Position numbers and translations under genes: made by a program. The notes beneath the pieces are model-generated. The model was not told the DNA's origin. It was given only the letters and a program-made list of their open reading frames with translations, and ran no database searches. From a virus, in the IMG/VR virus record IMGVR_UViG_3300009103_000066, positions 1 through 39,911 of that record: a stretch of 39,911 nt of DNA, one strand, 5' to 3'. Within the stretch, counting starts at the first letter, position 1, and every line of letters starts with the position of its first letter. This document shows positions 3,891 through 34,710 of this stretch, in pieces.

Positions 3891-4185
3891 TCCTGGCACC
3901 GCCTCGGTCTCGAATGGATCCATGTCCACGCGCACCCCTCCGAACGGAACCTCGCGCGAGATGGGCGAGATCTCGACGATCGTTTCTGAGCTTCGCCACG
4001 ACGTGAGGAACTACCGAACGATCATCGGTGCGATCGATGATCGCCAGCGCGAGCAAGAGCGCAGGATGATCGAGCTCGCCGCCGAGATCGCGCAGTTCCG
4101 CGCTCGCGTCATGACGGGTATCGCAGTTGGCGCTGCGATCCTCTCGTGCGGGGCATGGATCCTCGAGCTCTGGATGGGTGCATGA
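3877..4185 (+). CDS. Coiled-coil protein with C-terminal membrane helix (XhlA/holin-like, 102 aa)
   Basis: Residues 1-28 are Ser/Thr/Pro-rich. Residues 29-75 form a charged heptad-like helix (EISTIVSELRHDV onwards), and residues 79-98 are a single hydrophobic segment (GIAVGAAILSCGAWILELW). This order, a cytoplasmic coiled coil followed by a C-terminal membrane anchor, is that of XhlA-type holin partners. It starts inside the holin-like gene (14-base overlap) and its stop overlaps the endolysin ATG, so the three are probably translationally coupled. It could also be a general membrane anchor; the lysis role is from context. Confidence 0.55.
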   Translation: MAASDPGTASVSNGSMSTRTPPNGTSREMGEISTIVSELRHDVRNYRTIIGAIDDRQREQERRMIELAAEIAQFRARVMTGIAVGAAILSCGAWILELWMGA

Positions 4186-14611: not shown

Positions 14612-15317
14612 CCGGCCTCACTTCAAGGTGCACGTCTCCGCGCGCACCCACCCGAAGACCGCGAACGTCTTCGGAGACAACGATCTGCTCGCCGCATACA
14701 CCCGCATCGGGATGCTGATGGTCGAGCGTTACGCCTCCAAAACCGCCGACACGATCACTGTCCACAAGTCGGAGTTCGGCTGGATAACTGGAAGACATCG
14801 AGCGGACGTTGCGAGGAAGTTGCTCGAACGTCTCGCGGAAGTCTCGCCGATGTCCTTCGAACTTGATGGAGAGGTTGCGCGTATCTCGCTCCGTAACTTC
14901 TCGGAAAAGCAGGGATTCCGTTCAAAGAATGTACAAGAAGGGTCTCCCTCAGAACACAGAGCACAGAACACAGAACACATAGGGGAGAGTGAAGAACCGG
15001 AACCTCCGGTTCCGTCCCCCCTCTCGGACTCCCAAGTCGAGCGCCTGCAGGCCCTGCACCCAGGTCTCTACACCGCGCACGAGGTGCGCTGCTGGTACCA
15101 GCACAAGCTCCCGGCGATGAAGCTGCGCGGGATCACGAGGTACTACAGAGCGGCGGGGAGCTGGTTTCGCAATGTCAACCGAGCCGAGATCGACCTCGCC
15201 GTCGCCTGGGTCGAAGACCGCAAGATCATCGAGATGAAGGAGAGGCTACCCGCGAAGGCTCCGGTCAAGGGGACCGATGCCGAGTGGGCTGCAATGTTCG
15301 AAGGGGGGAATGAGTGA
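14601..15317 (+). CDS. Putative replication initiator (238 aa)
   Basis: ATG at 14601 with GGGGAG upstream. Residues 1-105 look like the winged-helix N-terminus of phage replication proteins (KVHVSARTHPKT, then a helix LLAAYTRIGMLMVERYAS and a HTH-like VHKSEFGWITGRHRADVARK). A low-complexity linker (110-140) is coded by repeats. Residues 140-200 form a second helical domain (HPGLYTAHEVRCWYQHKL). Position just before a DnaB-like ATPase fits an initiator or helicase loader. The family is inferred by architecture and context. Confidence 0.55.
   Translation: MPRSRPHFKVHVSARTHPKTANVFGDNDLLAAYTRIGMLMVERYASKTADTITVHKSEFGWITGRHRADVARKLLERLAEVSPMSFELDGEVARISLRNFSEKQGFRSKNVQEGSPSEHRAQNTEHIGESEEPEPPVPSPLSDSQVERLQALHPGLYTAHEVRCWYQHKLPAMKLRGITRYYRAAGSWFRNVNRAEIDLAVAWVEDRKIIEMKERLPAKAPVKGTDAEWAAMFEGGNE
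14950..14978. repeat. Iteron-like repeats, possible replication origin
   Basis: CAGAACAC occurs three times, at 14950, 14964 and 14971, spaced 14 and 7 bases. They lie inside the linker-coding part of the putative initiator gene, next to a less GC-rich stretch (14895-14945). In lambda-like phages the origin sits in the same place within gene O. Suggestive only. Confidence 0.35.
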
Positions 15318-16315
15318 ACGAGGAACAAGCGTCGGAGAGCGCAGCGCACTGGTACGAGTGCCTCGCAGGAGAGTCGAGATACTCGCTGCCCGTTCGCGCG
15401 TGGTGGATCGATGTCCACCTACCGGCGCAGGAAGGCGGCGTCGATCGGTGGGTTGCCGAGCTCCAGGGGACTGACCTCGAGCGGGAGAAGGTTCGCACTG
15501 CGGCGTTCGCAACCCTCGCAGAGGCCGAGTGCTTGCCGGCGAGACGCATCGTCCGAAGCCTCGCGCGAGCACTCCACGGTGGCGAGGTGCTCGAGGAGCA
15601 AGTCGCTGACGAAGTCGTCGTCGACACCGCGCGCGTCTGGCCGAGCGGATGTCAGGCACTCGATGATCGGTACGGCGGGATCCTCGGGCTCACCACCATC
15701 GCCGGCCACCCGGGCGTCGGGAAGAGTTTCCTCGCGCTCGGTGCCGCGATCGAGCAAGCCAAGCTCGGCCACCTCGTAATCTACGTGAACACCGAGTTGC
15801 CGAAGGCCGTGATGTACAGCCGGATCCGAAACTACCTTCGCGACCCCGAGCTCGGCTATGCGATTGCTTCTCACCTCAAGATCTGCCACGTCGGAGCGGG
15901 GATTACTCCCGAGATGCTGCTGGACTGGATCCGCGACAAGGTCAACGAGAACACGGTGTCACTCGCGAGCAGGAAGGTGTGCGTCGTGATCGACTCGGTG
16001 AACCGGATCGCGCAACTCAGCCAGGGCGATGGTGCCGGGTACTTCGCCGAACTCCAACGGTGGAGCAACTGGGGACGTGTTGCCGCGAAGGACGAAGCCG
16101 CACTCAACTGGATCGAGGTCAACGAGTTGTCTCGCGCGGGCGAAGAGAAGGGCGCGATGGCTGCATACGCCGCCGACATCTCGATCCGCATCACCAAGAC
16201 CGACGTCGCGGGGTGCATGCACTTCGAAGTTCCGAAGGCTCGCTATGGCGAGCCCGGCGTCATCGGCCGCATGTTCCTCGACCACGAGACCGGAACCTTT
16301 GTGAGGCCGCAGTAG
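15314..16315 (+). CDS. DnaB-like / RecA-fold replicative ATPase (333 aa)
   Basis: GTG at 15314 overlaps the initiator stop (GTGA). Walker A is GHPGVGKS (131-138), followed by a conserved acidic residue after beta-2 (VIYVNTELP, E161) and Walker B VCVVID (222-227). Residues 1-110 are a separate helical region. At 333 residues it is shorter than host DnaB (about 470), which suits phage helicase-type ATPases of the C-terminal RecA core. With the initiator upstream it probably forms the replication start complex; no phage polymerase is present, so host replication enzymes must be used. Confidence 0.75.
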   Translation: MNEEQASESAAHWYECLAGESRYSLPVRAWWIDVHLPAQEGGVDRWVAELQGTDLEREKVRTAAFATLAEAECLPARRIVRSLARALHGGEVLEEQVADEVVVDTARVWPSGCQALDDRYGGILGLTTIAGHPGVGKSFLALGAAIEQAKLGHLVIYVNTELPKAVMYSRIRNYLRDPELGYAIASHLKICHVGAGITPEMLLDWIRDKVNENTVSLASRKVCVVIDSVNRIAQLSQGDGAGYFAELQRWSNWGRVAAKDEAALNWIEVNELSRAGEEKGAMAAYAADISIRITKTDVAGCMHFEVPKARYGEPGVIGRMFLDHETGTFVRPQ

Positions 16316-16842: not shown

Positions 16843-17122
16843 AGACCACAGTGACCTGATCTGGATCGAGCCGATGAACGCGATCAGCCTCAAGTGGCAA
16901 CGGGGCCGGGAGAGGTACGGCGAAGAGTATGTCGGGGCTCGGCCAATCGTGGAGTGCCACGCCGAGATCCTCGACGCGTGTGCGTACTTGTGGCGCGAGC
17001 GGGCCGCATCCGACCTCGATGGAGAGGTGATCGATGAGCTGATCCGCACCCTGCTTGGGGTGCTCGAGGGCGTGCGGACGCAGATCAAGGGGGCGTCATG
17101 TACGAATACCACTGCCGCGTGA
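16793..17122 (+). CDS. Hypothetical protein, possible MazG-like helical fold (109 aa)
   Basis: The start is uncertain: GTG 16793 has a GGGGGA ribosome site but overlaps RuvC by 50 bases; ATG 16874 lies after the RuvC stop. The shared part has LKWQRGRERYGEEYVG followed by CHAEILDACAYLW, a pattern like the helical E-x-x-D region of small MazG-type nucleotide hydrolases, though the full metal-binding set is not clear. It lies between a resolvase and a nuclease, so nucleotide metabolism is reasonable but unproven. Confidence 0.5.
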   Translation: MQHETTSGELGQIPNCEDHSDLIWIEPMNAISLKWQRGRERYGEEYVGARPIVECHAEILDACAYLWRERAASDLDGEVIDELIRTLLGVLEGVRTQIKGASCTNTTAA

Positions 17123-17667
17123 TACGCGTTGTCGATGGCGACAGCCTGAAGCTCGAGGTCGATTGTGGCTTCGACGTTCGGGCGTGGATCAATGCTCGCG
17201 TCATGGGGGTCAACGCTCCAGAGGCGCGAGGAGATGAGCGCGAGCTCGGGAAGGCCGCGCGCGAGTGGTTGTCGTGGGTGCTGCTCGGCGGATCGGATGC
17301 AGACAGTCCGCTGGTCTTCCGAAGCTACAAGCGCGACAAGTACGGGCGATGGCTCGGTGATATCATCATGGACCCCAGGCGCGTGGACTACCACCAACTC
17401 TACCCTGCGAGGTACGGGAGCGGAGGCTATGTTGGCGCAGAGAGACTGTCGCTCTCGTTGGCCGACTGGATGGTTGACGTCGGAATCGGGATCGGGTGGA
17501 ACGGCAAGGGCACGAGGCCCGCGTTCACCGGAACCGCCCTGGAAGACTACGCAGACGGGTTCGGTATCCCGGCCGCAGAGCTGCTTCAGCTCACCGAGTA
17601 CTCGATGTCGTTAGGGCAGAAAGACTGGTGCGAGGAGGTGGCGGGGAGTGTCGAGGGCCGAGCGTGA
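17098..17667 (+). CDS. Staphylococcal-nuclease-like (SNase) protein (189 aa)
   Basis: The OB-fold SNase pattern is clear: VIRVVDGDSLKLEVDCGF (8-25), R34 before MGVNAPEARG (36-45), a helix with KAAREWL, and YKRDKYGRWLGDI. Canonical enzymes have I-D-T-P-E where this has V-N-A-P-E, so one calcium-ligand Asp is replaced by Asn (N39); E42 and nearby arginines remain. It probably degrades host DNA or processes phage DNA, if the change is tolerated. There is no signal peptide, so action would be inside the cell. Confidence 0.75.
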   Translation: MYEYHCRVIRVVDGDSLKLEVDCGFDVRAWINARVMGVNAPEARGDERELGKAAREWLSWVLLGGSDADSPLVFRSYKRDKYGRWLGDIIMDPRRVDYHQLYPARYGSGGYVGAERLSLSLADWMVDVGIGIGWNGKGTRPAFTGTALEDYADGFGIPAAELLQLTEYSMSLGQKDWCEEVAGSVEGRA

Positions 17668-18081: not shown

Positions 18082-18146
18082 GATTTGGGAGTCGAGACAG
18101 GTGCGCCTGCTCGGTGAGTGATGAGCCCGTTCAGTGCAGAGGTCGA

Positions 18147-18506
18147 ATGGCGAAGCCCGGTCAACACCCCAACTCGCTCAAGAACCTGAAGCCCTTCAAG
18201 CCGGGCCAGTCGGGGAACCCTGGGGGAAAGCCGAAGAACTCGTTCTCGACGCTCGTCAACCGCGAGCTCGAGAAGCGGAGCAAGAAGGATCCCGAGCTCA
18301 CAAAGCTCGAGGAGTTGGCTCGGGACTACGTCGATCAACTGTTGGCCGCAACGATACGCGAGCGCCGGGACTACCTCGCGCGTGTGTGGCCGGAAGTGAA
18401 GCAAACACAAGTGACAGGCGTGGAATCTGCGGAGGTGCGGTTCTCGTGGGTAGGTGAAGAGTCACCACCCGACGAGTCGACCTCTGATGACAGCACCGAA
18501 GAGTAA
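18147..18506 (+). CDS. Terminase small subunit candidate (DUF5681-like, 119 aa)
   Basis: ATG 18147 is preceded by AGAGG; an upstream GTG at 18114 is possible. The N-terminus has FKPGQSGNPGGKPK (17-30), the signature of DUF5681, a domain found at the start of many small phage packaging proteins. The centre is helical and charged, with an acidic Ser/Asp/Glu tail. It opens the late block, where terS normally lies, but terL is 6.5 kb downstream, separated by two very large genes. Confidence 0.55.
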   Translation: MAKPGQHPNSLKNLKPFKPGQSGNPGGKPKNSFSTLVNRELEKRSKKDPELTKLEELARDYVDQLLAATIRERRDYLARVWPEVKQTQVTGVESAEVRFSWVGEESPPDESTSDDSTEE

Positions 18507-18548: not shown

Positions 18549-21266
18549 GTGTTGCGCCTGGGCTCCGCGCCAATGATGCCGGGCTCACCGAGGGTACGAG
18601 CGCAAGCATCTCACCAGATGCTGGATCCGCGGCCGTGGCGGGAGAGGGTCAGCCGCTCTCCGGTCGCTGCGACTGGTGGCTTGCTGGGCGCAGCCAGTGC
18701 CACGACTCCGCACTACCTCGGCGGCCTCGCACTCGAGGCTGCGTCGGGCTTCCCGGCCGCTCGAGATCCAGAGCGCGAGCGTTGGGGCCCGGAGTTCTTC
18801 CAGGCCGCAGGCCCGCTCCCCTTCAACCCGCTCGGTGCAGTCGACGAGATCCTCGCGACGTTCGAAGGCGCAGACCAGCAGGTTGATCGCTTGCCGTTCG
18901 GGCCCGAGGCGCGAGCACTGATGGAAGGCGCGCAGCAGCACGCGACCGATGTCGGCGTGCCGATGCCGTTGCAGTTTGCCGCGGAGATGGCTGCGCCCGA
19001 CGTGACGGGCAAGGTCGGCGCGCTTGCGGGTGTCGCCGGCAAGCTGTTCGGGCCCGCTGGTGCGCTGTCAGGCGCTGCGGGGAAGCTATCCGGTCTCGGT
19101 GCGATAGAGCTCCTCGAGATGATGGCCCCGATTGCGGGCTTCACTGCGGCCCGCAAGCCCTGGTCGATCAACCCGAAGACGGGCCGGCTCGGGACCGACT
19201 CGGATTACATCGGAGACTCTAACTACGGCGAAGGCGCTACGGCGTACACCAGCGGCCACTACATGGGCGAGCATGAAGGCACCGCGCATTGGTACCAGGG
19301 GAACTTCGCGAGGGATCAAGTAGCACAAGGTGAAGGGTTCGAGACGGTCTACTTCACACCAGACGGCGACGAGATCGACGTCGAGTCGCTGCCAACGATT
19401 GAGCAGGACGCCCTCGAGTACTCGCAGATGTCCCCGACAGAAGCGCGTCGCATGTTCGACATCCGACGTGGCGTGTTCGGCCTAGCACCGCTCGACGACG
19501 AATCTGCACGGATGATGGATCTCGCGGACAAGTACAGGGACGAGGGGTATCGGGTCACCGATCGCCGAGCTCCGCAGCCCCCGGTGTACGGTCAGCAGTT
19601 CGACGTGTTCGAAGACGAGCTAATCGATCTCAACAAGACAGCGACCGAGCAACCCCGTTTCGAGGCGGTCGCCAGGGAATTGCTGGACGAGCTCAACCTT
19701 GAGGATTTCGAGTACCAGATACTCGATGAATCAGCCCTTAACGTCTACAACTTCATCGCACAGAGGATGTTTGGCGAGAGGGTTCCTCATCCGCACCTGG
19801 AGGGGGAGACAACCCTCAGGGCGACACAGCGGTCCAAGAGGGAACTGTCCAATCTGCTCGCCGAACGCGGGATCCTCGGTGCTCAGTACTTCGACGAACT
19901 GAGTCGTGGCGGCAATATCAAGTTCTCGATTGGCCCGGAAATCATCGAGCCGGGGTGGGAATGGGGTGGCGCTCACAACGCACCGATGAGTGCGGTTGAT
20001 CAGCTCGATGCAGAAGAAGCCGCCCTGCTTTCCCTCGAGAACGCGGTAGACCGGAGGGCGTCGACCGAGCTCGACGATGCGCTCTGGGAGGAAGTTCGGT
20101 CAGACCTCCTGCGACGCTCGGAGCGCGGTGACCCTGATGCAGGCAACGCTCTCGATCTGGTTGACCAGTGGAGAGCGGACGGGATGAAGATGTCTCGCCG
20201 GACGCGGAACTACGTTTCGTACCTGGACGAGCACAACTACGTAGACCCCGACCGAACGGATCCGCGGCTGATCGGTGACGCCCCGATCGGCGAGCCTTGG
20301 CGCACTACGCCGATCCGGCAGGCCAAGGACTTCGCAGGCGCAGACACGATCGGCATGGCGATGGACGATGCCGAGACTGTCACAGCCCGCGAGACAGACC
20401 CGGAGGTGATCGAGTGGCTGCGGTCCCAGGGCCAAGACATCGAAGCATCCGACGTGCTCGAGGCTCCCGCTTCAGAGATCGCCAACGCCGACCACTACCA
20501 CGCGAGCCCGGTGTGCAAGAACCTGTCGTGCGCGAAGGTCGGTCGGAACCTCGATGCCCTCGACGAAGCGAGTGCCCAGAAGGTCGCAGACAACATCGGG
20601 GAGGCGCTTCCGCCTGCCGTAACCGTCGAGAACGTCCCCGACTATCAGGACACGGTCCTGATGGACGACATCACCAACACGCTGGACGACGAGGGATACC
20701 TCTGGGATGTCGTCGAGATAGATGCAGCCGACTACGGGGGCGCGAGCTCGCGCAAGCGCATGATCCTGCGGGCGGTACGCGAGGGTGAGCTGCCGCCTCT
20801 GCCCGAGAAGACGGGCCCCACCGACTGGTACGAGACGATTGAGGACTTGATCGACGACGCGCCAGACAGCGAGTTTAGTGGCACAGGCGGAAACCCGAAC
20901 AAGGAGCTCGAGGGTATACGAGAACGATTCGCCACTTTCGAGAGAACCAACGGCAAGCACGGACTTGATCCAAGCCAGCCCGTGATCACGATGGGCGGGT
21001 GGAAGTCTGCTCGCAACCCTGGGAAAGCGGCTCCGACACTTCCCGCAAGCAATCAATTGCCTCGGATCATCATGCCAGACGGGCGGATCAAACAAGTCAC
21101 GCCGCGCATGATGGCCCGGCTCATGGGCATCGCAGACGATGTCCCGCTTCCCGACGACTACTACCTCGCGAAGAAGGTGCTCGGCAACGGCATCCACGGT
21201 GAGGTGACGAGGCAGATCATCCAGCCCGTCGCCGAGGCCGGAAGGCGAATGAGGACGAAGCCCTGA
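18549..21266 (+). CDS. Polyvalent-type protein with C5 cytosine methyltransferase domain (905 aa)
   Basis: Residues 590-900 hold a full C5 DNA methyltransferase: motif I-like DFAGADTIGMAM (about 593-604), motif IV SPVCKNLS with catalytic cysteine near 656, motif VI ENV (694-696), motif VIII ADYGGASSRKRMILRA (about 728-743), and the target-recognition end with TPRMMARLMGI and VLGNGIHGEV (GN near 879). In front lies a 580-residue part. Residues 30-200 are Gly/Ala-rich and hydrophobic. Residues 224-252 (GEGATAYTSGHYMGEHEG) recall large polyvalent-protein-associated domains of phage proteins that travel in the virion. It probably methylates cytosines in phage or host DNA, perhaps protecting incoming DNA. 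The start is uncertain: GTG 18549 or ATG 18573. Confidence 0.8.
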   Translation: MLRLGSAPMMPGSPRVRAQASHQMLDPRPWRERVSRSPVAATGGLLGAASATTPHYLGGLALEAASGFPAARDPERERWGPEFFQAAGPLPFNPLGAVDEILATFEGADQQVDRLPFGPEARALMEGAQQHATDVGVPMPLQFAAEMAAPDVTGKVGALAGVAGKLFGPAGALSGAAGKLSGLGAIELLEMMAPIAGFTAARKPWSINPKTGRLGTDSDYIGDSNYGEGATAYTSGHYMGEHEGTAHWYQGNFARDQVAQGEGFETVYFTPDGDEIDVESLPTIEQDALEYSQMSPTEARRMFDIRRGVFGLAPLDDESARMMDLADKYRDEGYRVTDRRAPQPPVYGQQFDVFEDELIDLNKTATEQPRFEAVARELLDELNLEDFEYQILDESALNVYNFIAQRMFGERVPHPHLEGETTLRATQRSKRELSNLLAERGILGAQYFDELSRGGNIKFSIGPEIIEPGWEWGGAHNAPMSAVDQLDAEEAALLSLENAVDRRASTELDDALWEEVRSDLLRRSERGDPDAGNALDLVDQWRADGMKMSRRTRNYVSYLDEHNYVDPDRTDPRLIGDAPIGEPWRTTPIRQAKDFAGADTIGMAMDDAETVTARETDPEVIEWLRSQGQDIEASDVLEAPASEIANADHYHASPVCKNLSCAKVGRNLDALDEASAQKVADNIGEALPPAVTVENVPDYQDTVLMDDITNTLDDEGYLWDVVEIDAADYGGASSRKRMILRAVREGELPPLPEKTGPTDWYETIEDLIDDAPDSEFSGTGGNPNKELEGIRERFATFERTNGKHGLDPSQPVITMGGWKSARNPGKAAPTLPASNQLPRIIMPDGRIKQVTPRMMARLMGIADDVPLPDDYYLAKKVLGNGIHGEVTRQIIQPVAEAGRRMRTKP

Positions 21267-29821: not shown

Positions 29822-30814
29822 ATGGCTGTGACCAATACCTACGACCAAACGATGGTCAGTCAGCGAGAGGATCTCGCGGACTTCATCTACAACATCGACC
29901 CGGTTCGGACGCCGATGCTCCAGGCGGCTGAGTGGACGACCGCGAGCTCAGTCACCCATGAGTGGACCGAGGATTCGCTCACCGCTGCCGCCGCAGACAA
30001 CGAGTGGAAGGAAGGCGAGGCGATGGACGCCTCTGCGGTCACTTCCGGTACTCGTCTCGGCAACTTTGCCCAGATCAGCCGGAAGGACTACGGCGTGTCT
30101 GGAACGGCAGAGGTGGTCAGCAAGGCCGGTCGCGACTCCGAGATCGCTCTCGGTCAGGCGAAGGCCATGCGCGAGCTGAAGCGGGACATGGACGCCGTCA
30201 TTTCGAAGAGCAACCACGCGAAGCGGGTTGCATCCAATGCGAACGAGCCGCGCCTCGCGAGTCTGGAGTGCTGGGTTCGTAACGCATCGCGCGGGACCGG
30301 AGGTGCTGACCCGACGGATTTCGACGGGACTGCCGTCGACACGTCGGCGGCCGACGCGGACTGTCGCGCCTTCACGCAGACGCTTCTGGATTCGGTCATC
30401 GAGGACTGCTGGACGAACGGAGGCAAGCCTTCCCTGCTCATCATGGGGCCGGCGGGTCGCAACCAGTTCAACACGTTCGACGGTCTCGCGAACCTGAAGA
30501 CCAACTCGATCCAGCGCAGCGATCGGTCGGACGGCACGGTCTACGGATCGGTGGACGTCTACCTGTCGGGCTTCGGCATCGAGCTCCGAGCGGTCAACTC
30601 CCCGCACCTTCGCCAGAACGGGCTCACCCCTGCGAAGGATCGCGATGCGTGGCTCATCGATCCCGAGCACCTGAAGGTTCCGTTCCTGCGGTCCTTCGAA
30701 GTCATCGACTTCGCGAAGGTCGGAGACTCGATCGAGCAGGGCGTGCTGGCTCAGTACACCCTCGAGGTGTGCAACACCTACGCGCACGGTCTGGTCGCTG
30801 ACATCGGCGGCTGA
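29822..30814 (+). CDS. Major capsid protein, DUF5309/SU10 type (330 aa)
   Basis: The N-terminus follows the DUF5309 pattern: QREDLADFIYNIDPVRTPML (16-35), SVTHEWTEDSL (about 44-54), RLGNFAQISRKDYGVSGTAE (about 79-98), then a long helix with MRELKRDMDAV and, near the C-terminus, HLRQNGLTP and D-x-x-x-L-I-D-P-E-H segments. This family has the HK97 fold and builds the icosahedral shell. A GAGAGGGA ribosome site precedes the ATG. A hairpin follows the gene, as expected for a highly expressed message. Confidence 0.93.
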   Translation: MAVTNTYDQTMVSQREDLADFIYNIDPVRTPMLQAAEWTTASSVTHEWTEDSLTAAAADNEWKEGEAMDASAVTSGTRLGNFAQISRKDYGVSGTAEVVSKAGRDSEIALGQAKAMRELKRDMDAVISKSNHAKRVASNANEPRLASLECWVRNASRGTGGADPTDFDGTAVDTSAADADCRAFTQTLLDSVIEDCWTNGGKPSLLIMGPAGRNQFNTFDGLANLKTNSIQRSDRSDGTVYGSVDVYLSGFGIELRAVNSPHLRQNGLTPAKDRDAWLIDPEHLKVPFLRSFEVIDFAKVGDSIEQGVLAQYTLEVCNTYAHGLVADIGG

Positions 30815-33315: not shown

Positions 33316-34041
33316 ATGGCCGCAATCACAAGCTACGACACGCTCAAGCAAGCCGTCACGCACTACACCGTGTTCGACGATTCGAGTGACATGTTCGAGA
33401 CGTTCCTGAGGCTCGCGGAGGATCGGTTCAACCGCGACCTGAGAGTCCCAGAGATGGTCGAGAACGATGTGGTAACGCTCGGTGCCCAGTCGACGTTCTT
33501 CGGCATCGACAAGGAAGACTTCGACGGTTCCCTGCCGACGCAGGACGTCATCGAGTTCATCGATGTCTCAAACGCGACATCGGGTGCTCTCAGGCTCATT
33601 CCGATGGAGAGGTTGATTCGACTGGCCTCGTATTGGGCCGCGACCGCGTTCGAGCCCGAGATGTATGCACTACAGGGTTCGAATATGTACTTCGCACCGA
33701 AGGCAGCAAGCAAGAGTGTCAACTTGGTGTACTACCGAAAGGTCACACCGATCACCTCTGCTTCTGATGCGAGCAATCACAACATGATCGCGAGGTATGG
33801 TGGACTGTACTTGTACGCCATTCTTCTCGAGGCTGCCGCCTTCATGAATGATCCAGAGAAGGAGATGTCCTACCTCAAGATGTACGAGAGGACGCGAGAC
33901 GTATTCAATGCTGGTGCAGCGCGGCGGGAACTGAACCCCTCGTTCGACCCGGCAGAGAGGCGGGACGCATCTCTGCCGCCCGCGTCCCAGCTTCCCGGGC
34001 AGAAGGAAGTCCGCGCCCTCAACGAATCAGGAGCTCTGTAG
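33316..34041 (+). CDS. Head-tail adaptor protein 1 (241 aa)
   Basis: The N-terminus ITSYDTLKQAVTHYTVFDDS, then FETFLRLAEDRFNRDLRVPEM, matches the phage adaptor family used beneath the portal in SU10-like and T7-like tails. A conserved FAPKAASKSVNLVYYRK block and a YLYAILLEAAAFM helix follow. The next gene is a clear paralogue. It would form the ring that joins the portal to the tail nozzle. Confidence 0.75.
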   Translation: MAAITSYDTLKQAVTHYTVFDDSSDMFETFLRLAEDRFNRDLRVPEMVENDVVTLGAQSTFFGIDKEDFDGSLPTQDVIEFIDVSNATSGALRLIPMERLIRLASYWAATAFEPEMYALQGSNMYFAPKAASKSVNLVYYRKVTPITSASDASNHNMIARYGGLYLYAILLEAAAFMNDPEKEMSYLKMYERTRDVFNAGAARRELNPSFDPAERRDASLPPASQLPGQKEVRALNESGAL

Positions 34042-34044
34042 AAC

Positions 34045-34710
34045 ATGGCCGCAATCGTAAACTACTCAACACTTCAGGATGCGGTGACGCAGTACCTGAT
34101 CCACTCGGACGACGCGGGCCTCTTCGACACCTTCCTGAAGCTCGCCGAGAACCGCTTCAACAAAGAGCTACGGGTGCGTGAACTCGTTTCTGACACGGTG
34201 GGCACCACAGGTGCGGGGTTCGTCAGCTCGAACACGACCCTCAGTGCCGACTTTGTCGAACCGATCGCAATCTACCTGAGCGCCCCCGTAGGAAACTCTG
34301 GTTCACTCAGTTACCTGCCACCGAACAAGTTCTTCAACTTGAAGTCCTCGCACAGCGGTACCGGGATCCCGAAGTACTACACGATCTTCGGGAATAAGAT
34401 GCACTTCTCGCCGTTCGGCACGTCCTGCACGGCGAACTGGCATTACTACAAGGAGCTCACGCCACTCACGTCGTCGAACGCAACGAACGAGCTCATGCCG
34501 AGCGCAGCGAACCTGTACCTGTACGGGGTGTTGCTCGAGGCGCAGCCCTTCCTGAACCAGCCAGAGAGGATCACCGAGTTCGAGTCGTTCTACGATCGGG
34601 CGAAGGACTCCCTGATCGCAGCCGACGCTCGTGCCCGGTTGCGCCCCGGTGTCGGTCAGAGGATGCGCGCATCTGGTGTAACGGCCGATGGGGTATTCCG
34701 TATCCCCTGA
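34045..34710 (+). CDS. Head-tail adaptor protein 2 (221 aa)
   Basis: It aligns with the preceding gene along most of its length: IVNYSTLQDAVTQYLIHSDD, FDTFLKLAENRFNKELRVREL, FSPFGTSCTANWHYYKELTP and YLYGVLLEAQPFL. A three-base gap separates the two genes; ATG follows a GGAG site. Two adaptors in tandem suggest a two-layer or mixed adaptor ring, or a duplication whose second copy took on a new role. The stop overlaps the nozzle ATG. Confidence 0.75.
   Translation: MAAIVNYSTLQDAVTQYLIHSDDAGLFDTFLKLAENRFNKELRVRELVSDTVGTTGAGFVSSNTTLSADFVEPIAIYLSAPVGNSGSLSYLPPNKFFNLKSSHSGTGIPKYYTIFGNKMHFSPFGTSCTANWHYYKELTPLTSSNATNELMPSAANLYLYGVLLEAQPFLNQPERITEFESFYDRAKDSLIAADARARLRPGVGQRMRASGVTADGVFRIP

Follow-up and report, generated by a model that had tools for sequence, protein, structure and literature searches.

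A C5 cytosine methyltransferase fused to an N-terminal leader in the head and packaging gene cluster of a podovirus-like phage

The window, the whole 39,911-base IMG/VR virus record analyzed here, encodes a 905-residue protein in which an N-terminal leader, an ART-like (ADP-ribosyltransferase-like) domain, and a C5 cytosine methyltransferase domain are fused in one frame (Table 1). The leader is shared with an unrelated payload encoded by the adjacent gene, the two genes lie in the head and packaging cluster, and related phages show exchange of payloads at the leader boundary. We propose that the protein may be a virion-delivered C5 methyltransferase used against restriction, an explanation that, taken as a whole, we hold to be evenly balanced.

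The 905-residue protein and its relatives

As the earlier note had said, the gene lies between the terminase subunits, with a candidate terS and terL on its flanks. One further large gene, whose start overlaps the stop of the methyltransferase gene, separates it from terL. A GTG is predicted as the candidate start, and in-frame ATGs lie 24 and 27 bases downstream. No restriction partner is found among the Pfam and PHROG matches of the window genes tested. Elsewhere in the window, two adjacent genes (33316-34038 and 34045-34707) both match phrog_2941 (virion structural) and may be the counterpart of the dual tubular tail A genes of phiGT1-like podoviruses, as these are described in the available text of PMC10386132. 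The gene at 34710 matches an internal virion protein family, and the AAA/KaiC-like ATPase and SNase-like matches (15314-16312 and 17098-17664) are all below the curated cut-offs.

Table 1. Features of the window, and positions of the PTPRAEA DNA word in other loci
Feature	Position	Strand	Details and evidence
Candidate small terminase (terS, DUF5681)	18114..18506	+	Pfam PF18932, E 1.7e-10
Leader + ART-like + C5 methyltransferase protein	18549..21266	+	905 aa, single frame, no internal stops
N-terminal leader	18654..19118	+	about residues 36-190; leader HMM and shuffle tests
Degenerate ART-like (GEGA) domain plus following stretch	19119..20309	+	residues 191-454, plus ~130 residues to 587; homology to relatives
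C5 cytosine methyltransferase domain	20316..21263	+	residues 590-905; PF00145, HMM and motif table, fold
Leader + unrelated payload	21266..24346	+	1026 aa; leader residues 32-179, payload about 384-1008; leader HMM, pair comparison
Large terminase (terL)	24996..26294	+	PF03237, E 7e-9; phrog_2, E 1e-33
SU10-like portal	26294..28441	+	PF23899, E 1e-164
Head scaffolding protein	28827..29816	+	phrog_3927, E 2e-23
SU10-like major capsid protein	29822..30814	+	PF17236, E 2e-66
PTPRAEA DNA word (~20 bp)	L013 5210, 5693; L005 666, 1149; L006 5538, 6270
PTPRAEA DNA word	L111 ~7960, 8964; L121 1407; also L155, L157, L160

The C-terminal part of the protein matches PF00145 (DNA_methylase) over residues 596-892 with 59.2 bits against a Pfam cut-off of 22 (E 6.1e-16), and the PHROG matches are phrog_116 and phrog_363, DNA methyltransferase. 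It also matches M.HaeIII in sequence (E 2.2e-4). The earlier note had proposed AlphaFold as a check; in the AlphaFold2 model, built on a seven-row alignment, the methyltransferase part has pLDDT values of mostly 70-95 and the first 509 residues lie below 50, and Foldseek with the predicted fold retrieves M.HhaI (E 2.5e-11) and M.HaeIII (E 4.9e-11). NCBIfam TIGR00675 (dcm), a stricter model of the C5 methyltransferase superfamily, gives the window protein 33.7 of the 100.65 bits of its cut-off, and the L109 and L013 proteins also score below it. Membership of the window protein in the C5 methyltransferase family is practically certain.

In the alignment numbering, the segment that we take to be motif IV is SPVC with Cys656, the catalytic Cys that had been placed near 656, and those that we take to be motifs VI, VIII, and X are ENV (694-696), RKR (735-737), and GNG (879-881). 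The presumed motif I is FAGADT (residues 595-600), in which the first Gly of FxGxG is retained and the second is Asp. The domain, which the earlier note called complete, is therefore better described as near-complete: motifs IV, VI, and VIII and the GN end are present, and a canonical motif I is not. Fold and motif order are those of M.HaeIII and M.HhaI, but the window protein differs from both in having SPVC at the catalytic Cys, where the usual C5 methyltransferase motif is PPC, in its altered motif I, and in its fused leader and ART-like domain. Motif I is readable in 33 clade domains, and its second Gly deviates in 5 of these, namely in the window, in L131 and L141 (likewise Asp), and in L122 and L126 (Arg), indicating that this position is not fully strict. 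Because of the G-to-D change, which may weaken SAM binding, the activity of the window enzyme is uncertain, and we lean only slightly toward an active copy.

The GEGATAY block, previously read as polyvalent-type, lies in the domain between leader and methyltransferase. Residues 191-454 of the window protein align at z=15 with L109 (0/300 shuffles), at z=9.4 with L125, and at z=7.3 with L174; directly against L017 they give z=0.7. In the ~130-residue stretch that follows, only the end (545-587) matches L109. The ART name reaches the window domain only through relatives, the best of which, the L174 domain, scores 29.2 of 31.2 bits against ART-PolyVal (PF18760; E 1.8e-6), below the cut-off, and Pfam gives no ART-PolyVal match in window residues 187-484. 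The ART active site consists of H-Y-D on strands 1, 2, and 5, according to the available text of PMC5512222. The strand-1 His (HGSP) is present in L174, L125, and L017, is replaced by Val in L109, and is missing in the window, where the Tyr of GxY is retained; the window domain thus lacks the full H-Y-D set. Homology to the L174-type domain together with the loss of this His leads us to see in it a decayed ART-like domain that looks inactive. L109 has a second ART-like domain ahead of the methyltransferase (sub-cut-off), which the window protein does not have.

The methyltransferase alignment retrieved 42 loci from viral contigs and a single locus from genome contigs, in Prevotellamassilia timonensis, where the open frame spans 3449 aa. 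Among the ORFs covered, the methyltransferase HMM gives at least 150 bits to 24 distinct ORFs that are complete and to 15 that are partial. Because the complete members are mostly at least 700 aa long (21 of the 24; longest 4525) and carry added domains, the clade is one of large phage proteins with many domains. The fusion of a C5 methyltransferase to a polyvalent-type N-terminus is borne out by the unbroken frame and by the fusions in relatives; it had been thought unusual for phage C5 methyltransferases, and in this clade it is the rule (23 of the 24 complete ORFs are joined to extra sequence). Long members carry LPD38 (L111, L134, and L135), LPD22 (L122), or DUF7178 (L127), and Pfam matches no LPD or other catalogued polyvalent domain in the 905-residue protein. 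In L127 and L141, two of the giant members, a tail protein matching phrog_376 is encoded a few genes upstream; in T7-like maps, internal virion proteins occupy that place. Free-standing matches are weaker and fall below 150 bits (PaV-LD, 139 bits; L150, 113 bits). The PaV-LD DNA methylase (HQ683709) is the best full-domain match among annotated phages (28.8% identity), but it is a free-standing 346-aa gene among replication genes. For the 'methyltransferase' of LS06-2018-MD07, the C5 HMM finds no match in the 12.3 kb examined.

The modules are joined in several ways. In L123 and L126 (438 aa), a leader of ~130 aa is joined straight to the methyltransferase without an ART-like domain, and this methyltransferase shares 91-96% identity with the one in L125, where an ART-like domain lies in between. 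In L124, a leader-ART ORF is followed in frame by a methyltransferase ORF of 294 aa, the two being parted by a single in-frame stop (4086-4088) at the start of motif I; a split gene, decay, and a sequence error are candidate readings of it. A stop near residue 585 in relatives was what the earlier note had named as a sign of a sequencing-caused fusion, and the L124 stop lies at the corresponding ART/methyltransferase boundary, whereas 23 of the 24 complete ORFs run on into extra sequence. That sequencing or assembly has joined two genes into the window gene has next to no probability, since the frame of this gene is unbroken and continuous fusions recur in many independent contigs, so that the relatives refute it. 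Mis-assembly of a free-standing phage methyltransferase is ruled out by the same 23 relatives.

A leader shared by adjacent genes, with payloads exchanged behind it

The first 580 residues had been described as Gly/Ala-rich; the enrichment ends at about residue 190 (G+A 0.31 vs 0.18 in the rest). We built a leader HMM from the window methyltransferase protein, the L109 methyltransferase protein (978 aa), and the L002 760-aa protein, and searched 1595 ORFs of at least 120 aa together with 6380 reversed or shuffled decoys. Beyond the seeds, three of the 1595 ORFs match, all N-terminally and over the same interval: the 474-aa neighbor in L109 (E 3e-12), a 646-aa gene in L010 (E 7e-10), and the 1026-aa neighbor in the window (E 1.1e-4). 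None of the decoys matches at E<=10, and one further round adds L012 weakly (E 2e-4). The large genes directly upstream of the leader genes in L010 (3090-4085) and L012 (1001-2011) lack the leader; their products are very Gly/Ala-rich and start with MPFLAAIPA.

Over the first 200 residues, the two window proteins are identical at 38 of 121 positions, with z=5.0 vs z=0.4 for the rest, and this score is reached by 3 of 2000 shuffles. The payload of the 1026-aa neighbor has relatives in 37 viral loci, often inside other leader-bearing genes, and its gene product has a predicted structure with pLDDT 34 and no usable fold. Weak DUF7178 hints are seen in two other leader-bearing neighbors (L013, 625 aa; L193, 759 aa).

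Adjacent genes that are alike only at the N-terminus (first 100-250 aa) are also found in L109 (z=18), L013 (z=16), L017 (z=57), L125 (z=14), L193 (z=19), and L174 (z=20). We systematically tested 734 pairs of co-directional ORFs, each at least 300 aa long, from 169 loci; 14 pairs pass the threshold of N-terminal E < 1e-4, and 13 of these are adjacent. We dropped three pairs in L102 and one in L120 (alike over the full length), L160 (similar beyond the N-terminus as well), L111 (of tail-spike type on visual inspection), and L153 (the same protein pair as L013), and counted L174 and L175 as one lineage; the pair is the same in L108 and L109. Six lineages beyond the window (L013, L017, L108, L125, L174/L175, and L193) thus have adjacent genes sharing only their N-termini. 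The window pair is absent from the 14 because its BLAST E exceeds 1e-4; its case is made by the HMM and the shuffles, and it is the weakest among the leader pairs.

Terminase or portal genes adjoin the pairs in L013, L017, L108, L125, and L174, and the neighbors in L193 are not placeable. In the L174/L175 pair, which sits just after terL, a relative of the window 1026-aa protein is paired with an ART-type protein, and the two share only their first 38 residues (61-68% identical). In L109, L125, and L126, terL directly follows the leader-methyltransferase gene, which in L124 lies between the portal and scaffold genes.

Chance similarity of G/A-rich N-termini was considered and rejected, as shuffled controls and decoys fail to reproduce the likeness, which is modest for the window pair alone. 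A single universal leader family is likewise unsupported: between the leaders of separate lineages, hhalign shows no significant likeness (E 0.038 and 0.009, probability 1-5%), and the leader HMMs give no convincing match to L125, L193, L174, or phiGT1 gene 5. The product of this last gene (L199 4918-6081; QLB38217.1) has a distinct, GA-rich N-terminal part followed by an ART-type domain, and the gene lies in the head module, between the portal and scaffold genes; phiGT1 genes 4 and 5 show no similarity and are ruled out as a leader pair. phiGT1 is a cultured Sulfitobacter phage whose virion was analyzed by mass spectrometry, as stated in the accessible part of PMC10386132. We regard the leader as very likely a shared module and as probably a virion-targeting signal.

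Comparison of close relatives locates the exchanges. The large terminases of L013 and L006 are 97.9% identical and their leaders are identical at 138 of 162 positions (85%), with z=1.8 for the rest. Behind the leader, L013 carries the ART-like domain and the methyltransferase plus a second gene, and L006 (1255 aa) carries a relative of the window 1026-aa protein. The DNA homology of the two ends at the leader end (L013 5202) and restarts at the TerL start (8652), and the sole DNA match in between is a 27-bp linker. L013 and L005 are 99.9% identical from 5207 onward and do not match before it. Break-points at the leader end are thus seen in two comparisons, 5 bp apart. Between the window and L013, the methyltransferases give z=111 and the leaders z=1.6. 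In L002, the nearest relative of the window (TerL 97.9%; methyltransferase end 95.8% in DNA), the gene after the methyltransferase is replaced by the 760-aa protein, which has the same leader type. Judged by these alignments, leaders track the phage and payloads track their own family.

PTPRAEA or a close variant is found in frame at module borders in L013, L005, L006, L111, and L121, and two copies bracket the methyltransferase in L111. The underlying DNA word is base-identical in several unrelated proteins, for which codon choice alone gives a probability of 3e-4 to 8e-4. A pattern scan specifying 18 bases returned 12 contigs. The word is in frame in long ORFs in five of them (two of the L013 type, L005, L007, and L006) and in four of the seven others that were checked (L121, L155, L157, and L160; not L151, L152, or L154); chosen by their DNA word, the 12 contigs are uninformative on the frequency of the peptide with other codons. 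The linker is absent from the window. We suggest the DNA word as a candidate recombination linker at the borders of swapped modules in polyvalent-type proteins.

Proposed virion delivery and its alternatives

In T4, the leader-targeted injected head proteins are cleaved by the prohead protease. T4 Ip1-3 have in common only an N-terminal leader, which directs packaging, and they are injected and counter type IV restriction, according to the available text of PMC12373910. The window system resembles them in having unrelated payloads with a common N-terminal leader at a variable locus and, with packaging predicted, in its proposed injected anti-restriction role; the T4 payloads inhibit type IV restriction enzymes, whereas the window type has ~150-aa leaders, C5 methyltransferase and ART-like payloads, and a podovirus-like genome. 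P1 DarB is a large head protein whose 30 N-terminal residues suffice to package a reporter in P1 heads (PMC9024508), and it is ejected and protects DNA from restriction (PMC9024508 and PMC5512222, as far as their accessible texts go). Both DarB and the window protein are large methyltransferase proteins with an N-terminal leader, but packaging is shown for DarB and predicted for the window protein, and DarB is described as an adenine methyltransferase-helicase protein, whereas the window protein is a C5 cytosine methyltransferase with no helicase match in Pfam.

Relatives of the window protein also resemble the polyvalent proteins of Iyer et al. (2017), with several enzyme domains per phage polypeptide, ART and metallopeptidase partners (sub-cut-off), and LPD38 or LPD22 alongside the same methyltransferase clade in the four relatives named above; the window protein itself combines the methyltransferase with an ART-like domain that looks inactive, and it has no LPD match. 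The polyvalent methylases described there are mostly adenine methyltransferases, and in the portion of PMC5512222 covered the word 'cytosine' occurs once, in the reference list. The open-access literature covered, including the available text of PMC7824862, yielded no account of a C5 methyltransferase packaged in virions.

In our proposed explanation, the 905-residue protein and its neighbor are a pair of leader and payload proteins of a podovirus-like phage. The leader, specific to the phage lineage and comprising the first ~190 residues, would direct the protein into the assembling head, as in T4 Ip1-3 and P1 DarB. The payload, a decayed ART-like domain and a C5 methyltransferase, would be ejected with the DNA, and the methyltransferase would modify cytosines in the incoming genome ahead of cleavage by host restriction enzymes. 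We hold virion delivery to be the most likely reading because the arrangement matches the design of T4 Ip1-3 and P1 DarB, and the leader common to an unrelated neighboring gene supports it indirectly. Ejection with the DNA is, in our assessment, somewhat probable, and anti-restriction methylation, to us the likeliest use of the protein, falls just short of an even chance.

The protein could instead be a late cytoplasmic methyltransferase that marks progeny DNA before packaging, in which case the DNA in the particle would be protected beforehand and the N-terminus would stabilize the protein or bring it to the packaging motor or procapsid. The position of the genes among packaging genes would fit this, and the PaV-LD relative, free-standing among replication genes, indicates that this type of enzyme can work without delivery; the same leader on unrelated payloads that are not methyltransferases, and the ART-like partner, are left unexplained, and we consider this reading unlikely. 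Somewhat less likely still is a virion-delivered protein whose methyltransferase is dead or nearly so, acting by binding, e.g., as a decoy or DNA-binding effector, with the domain kept as a scaffold. The change of FxGxG to FAGAD and the adjoining ART-like domain without its strand-1 His point in that direction, but Cys656, ENV, RxR, and GNG are retained, and L131, L141, L122, and L126 vary at the same Gly.

Shared N-termini need not mean effectors, because the dropped L111 pair is of tail-spike type, as judged by eye from its sequence. The leader might accordingly be a structural adaptor for internal or tail-tip components, like the N-termini of tail spikes, and the products structural proteins. 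We regard this as quite improbable, since the payloads are enzyme-like (methyltransferase and ART-like), are swapped among close relatives, and lie beside terminase and portal genes rather than fibre genes.

Returning to delivery in the virion, we tentatively extend it to a wider system, which we consider possible and somewhat less than evenly probable: podovirus-like phages may carry a head-delivered, polymorphic effector system in which each lineage has a private leader on one or two genes beside the terminase or portal gene, and in which payloads (C5 methyltransferase, ART-like, metallopeptidase-like, and others) are exchanged, partly via the PTPRAEA linker. The C5 methyltransferase clade would be one such cargo, the cytosine counterpart of DarB. 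If this is true, leader-directed protein injection, known from T4 and P1, would also occur in podovirus-like phages that are uncultured, and cytosine methylation would be added to what phages deliver along with their DNA. Neighboring genes whose likeness is confined to the N-terminus would then provide a sequence rule for finding injected effectors of unknown function, and the leaders would be testable packaging tags to carry foreign proteins in phage heads.
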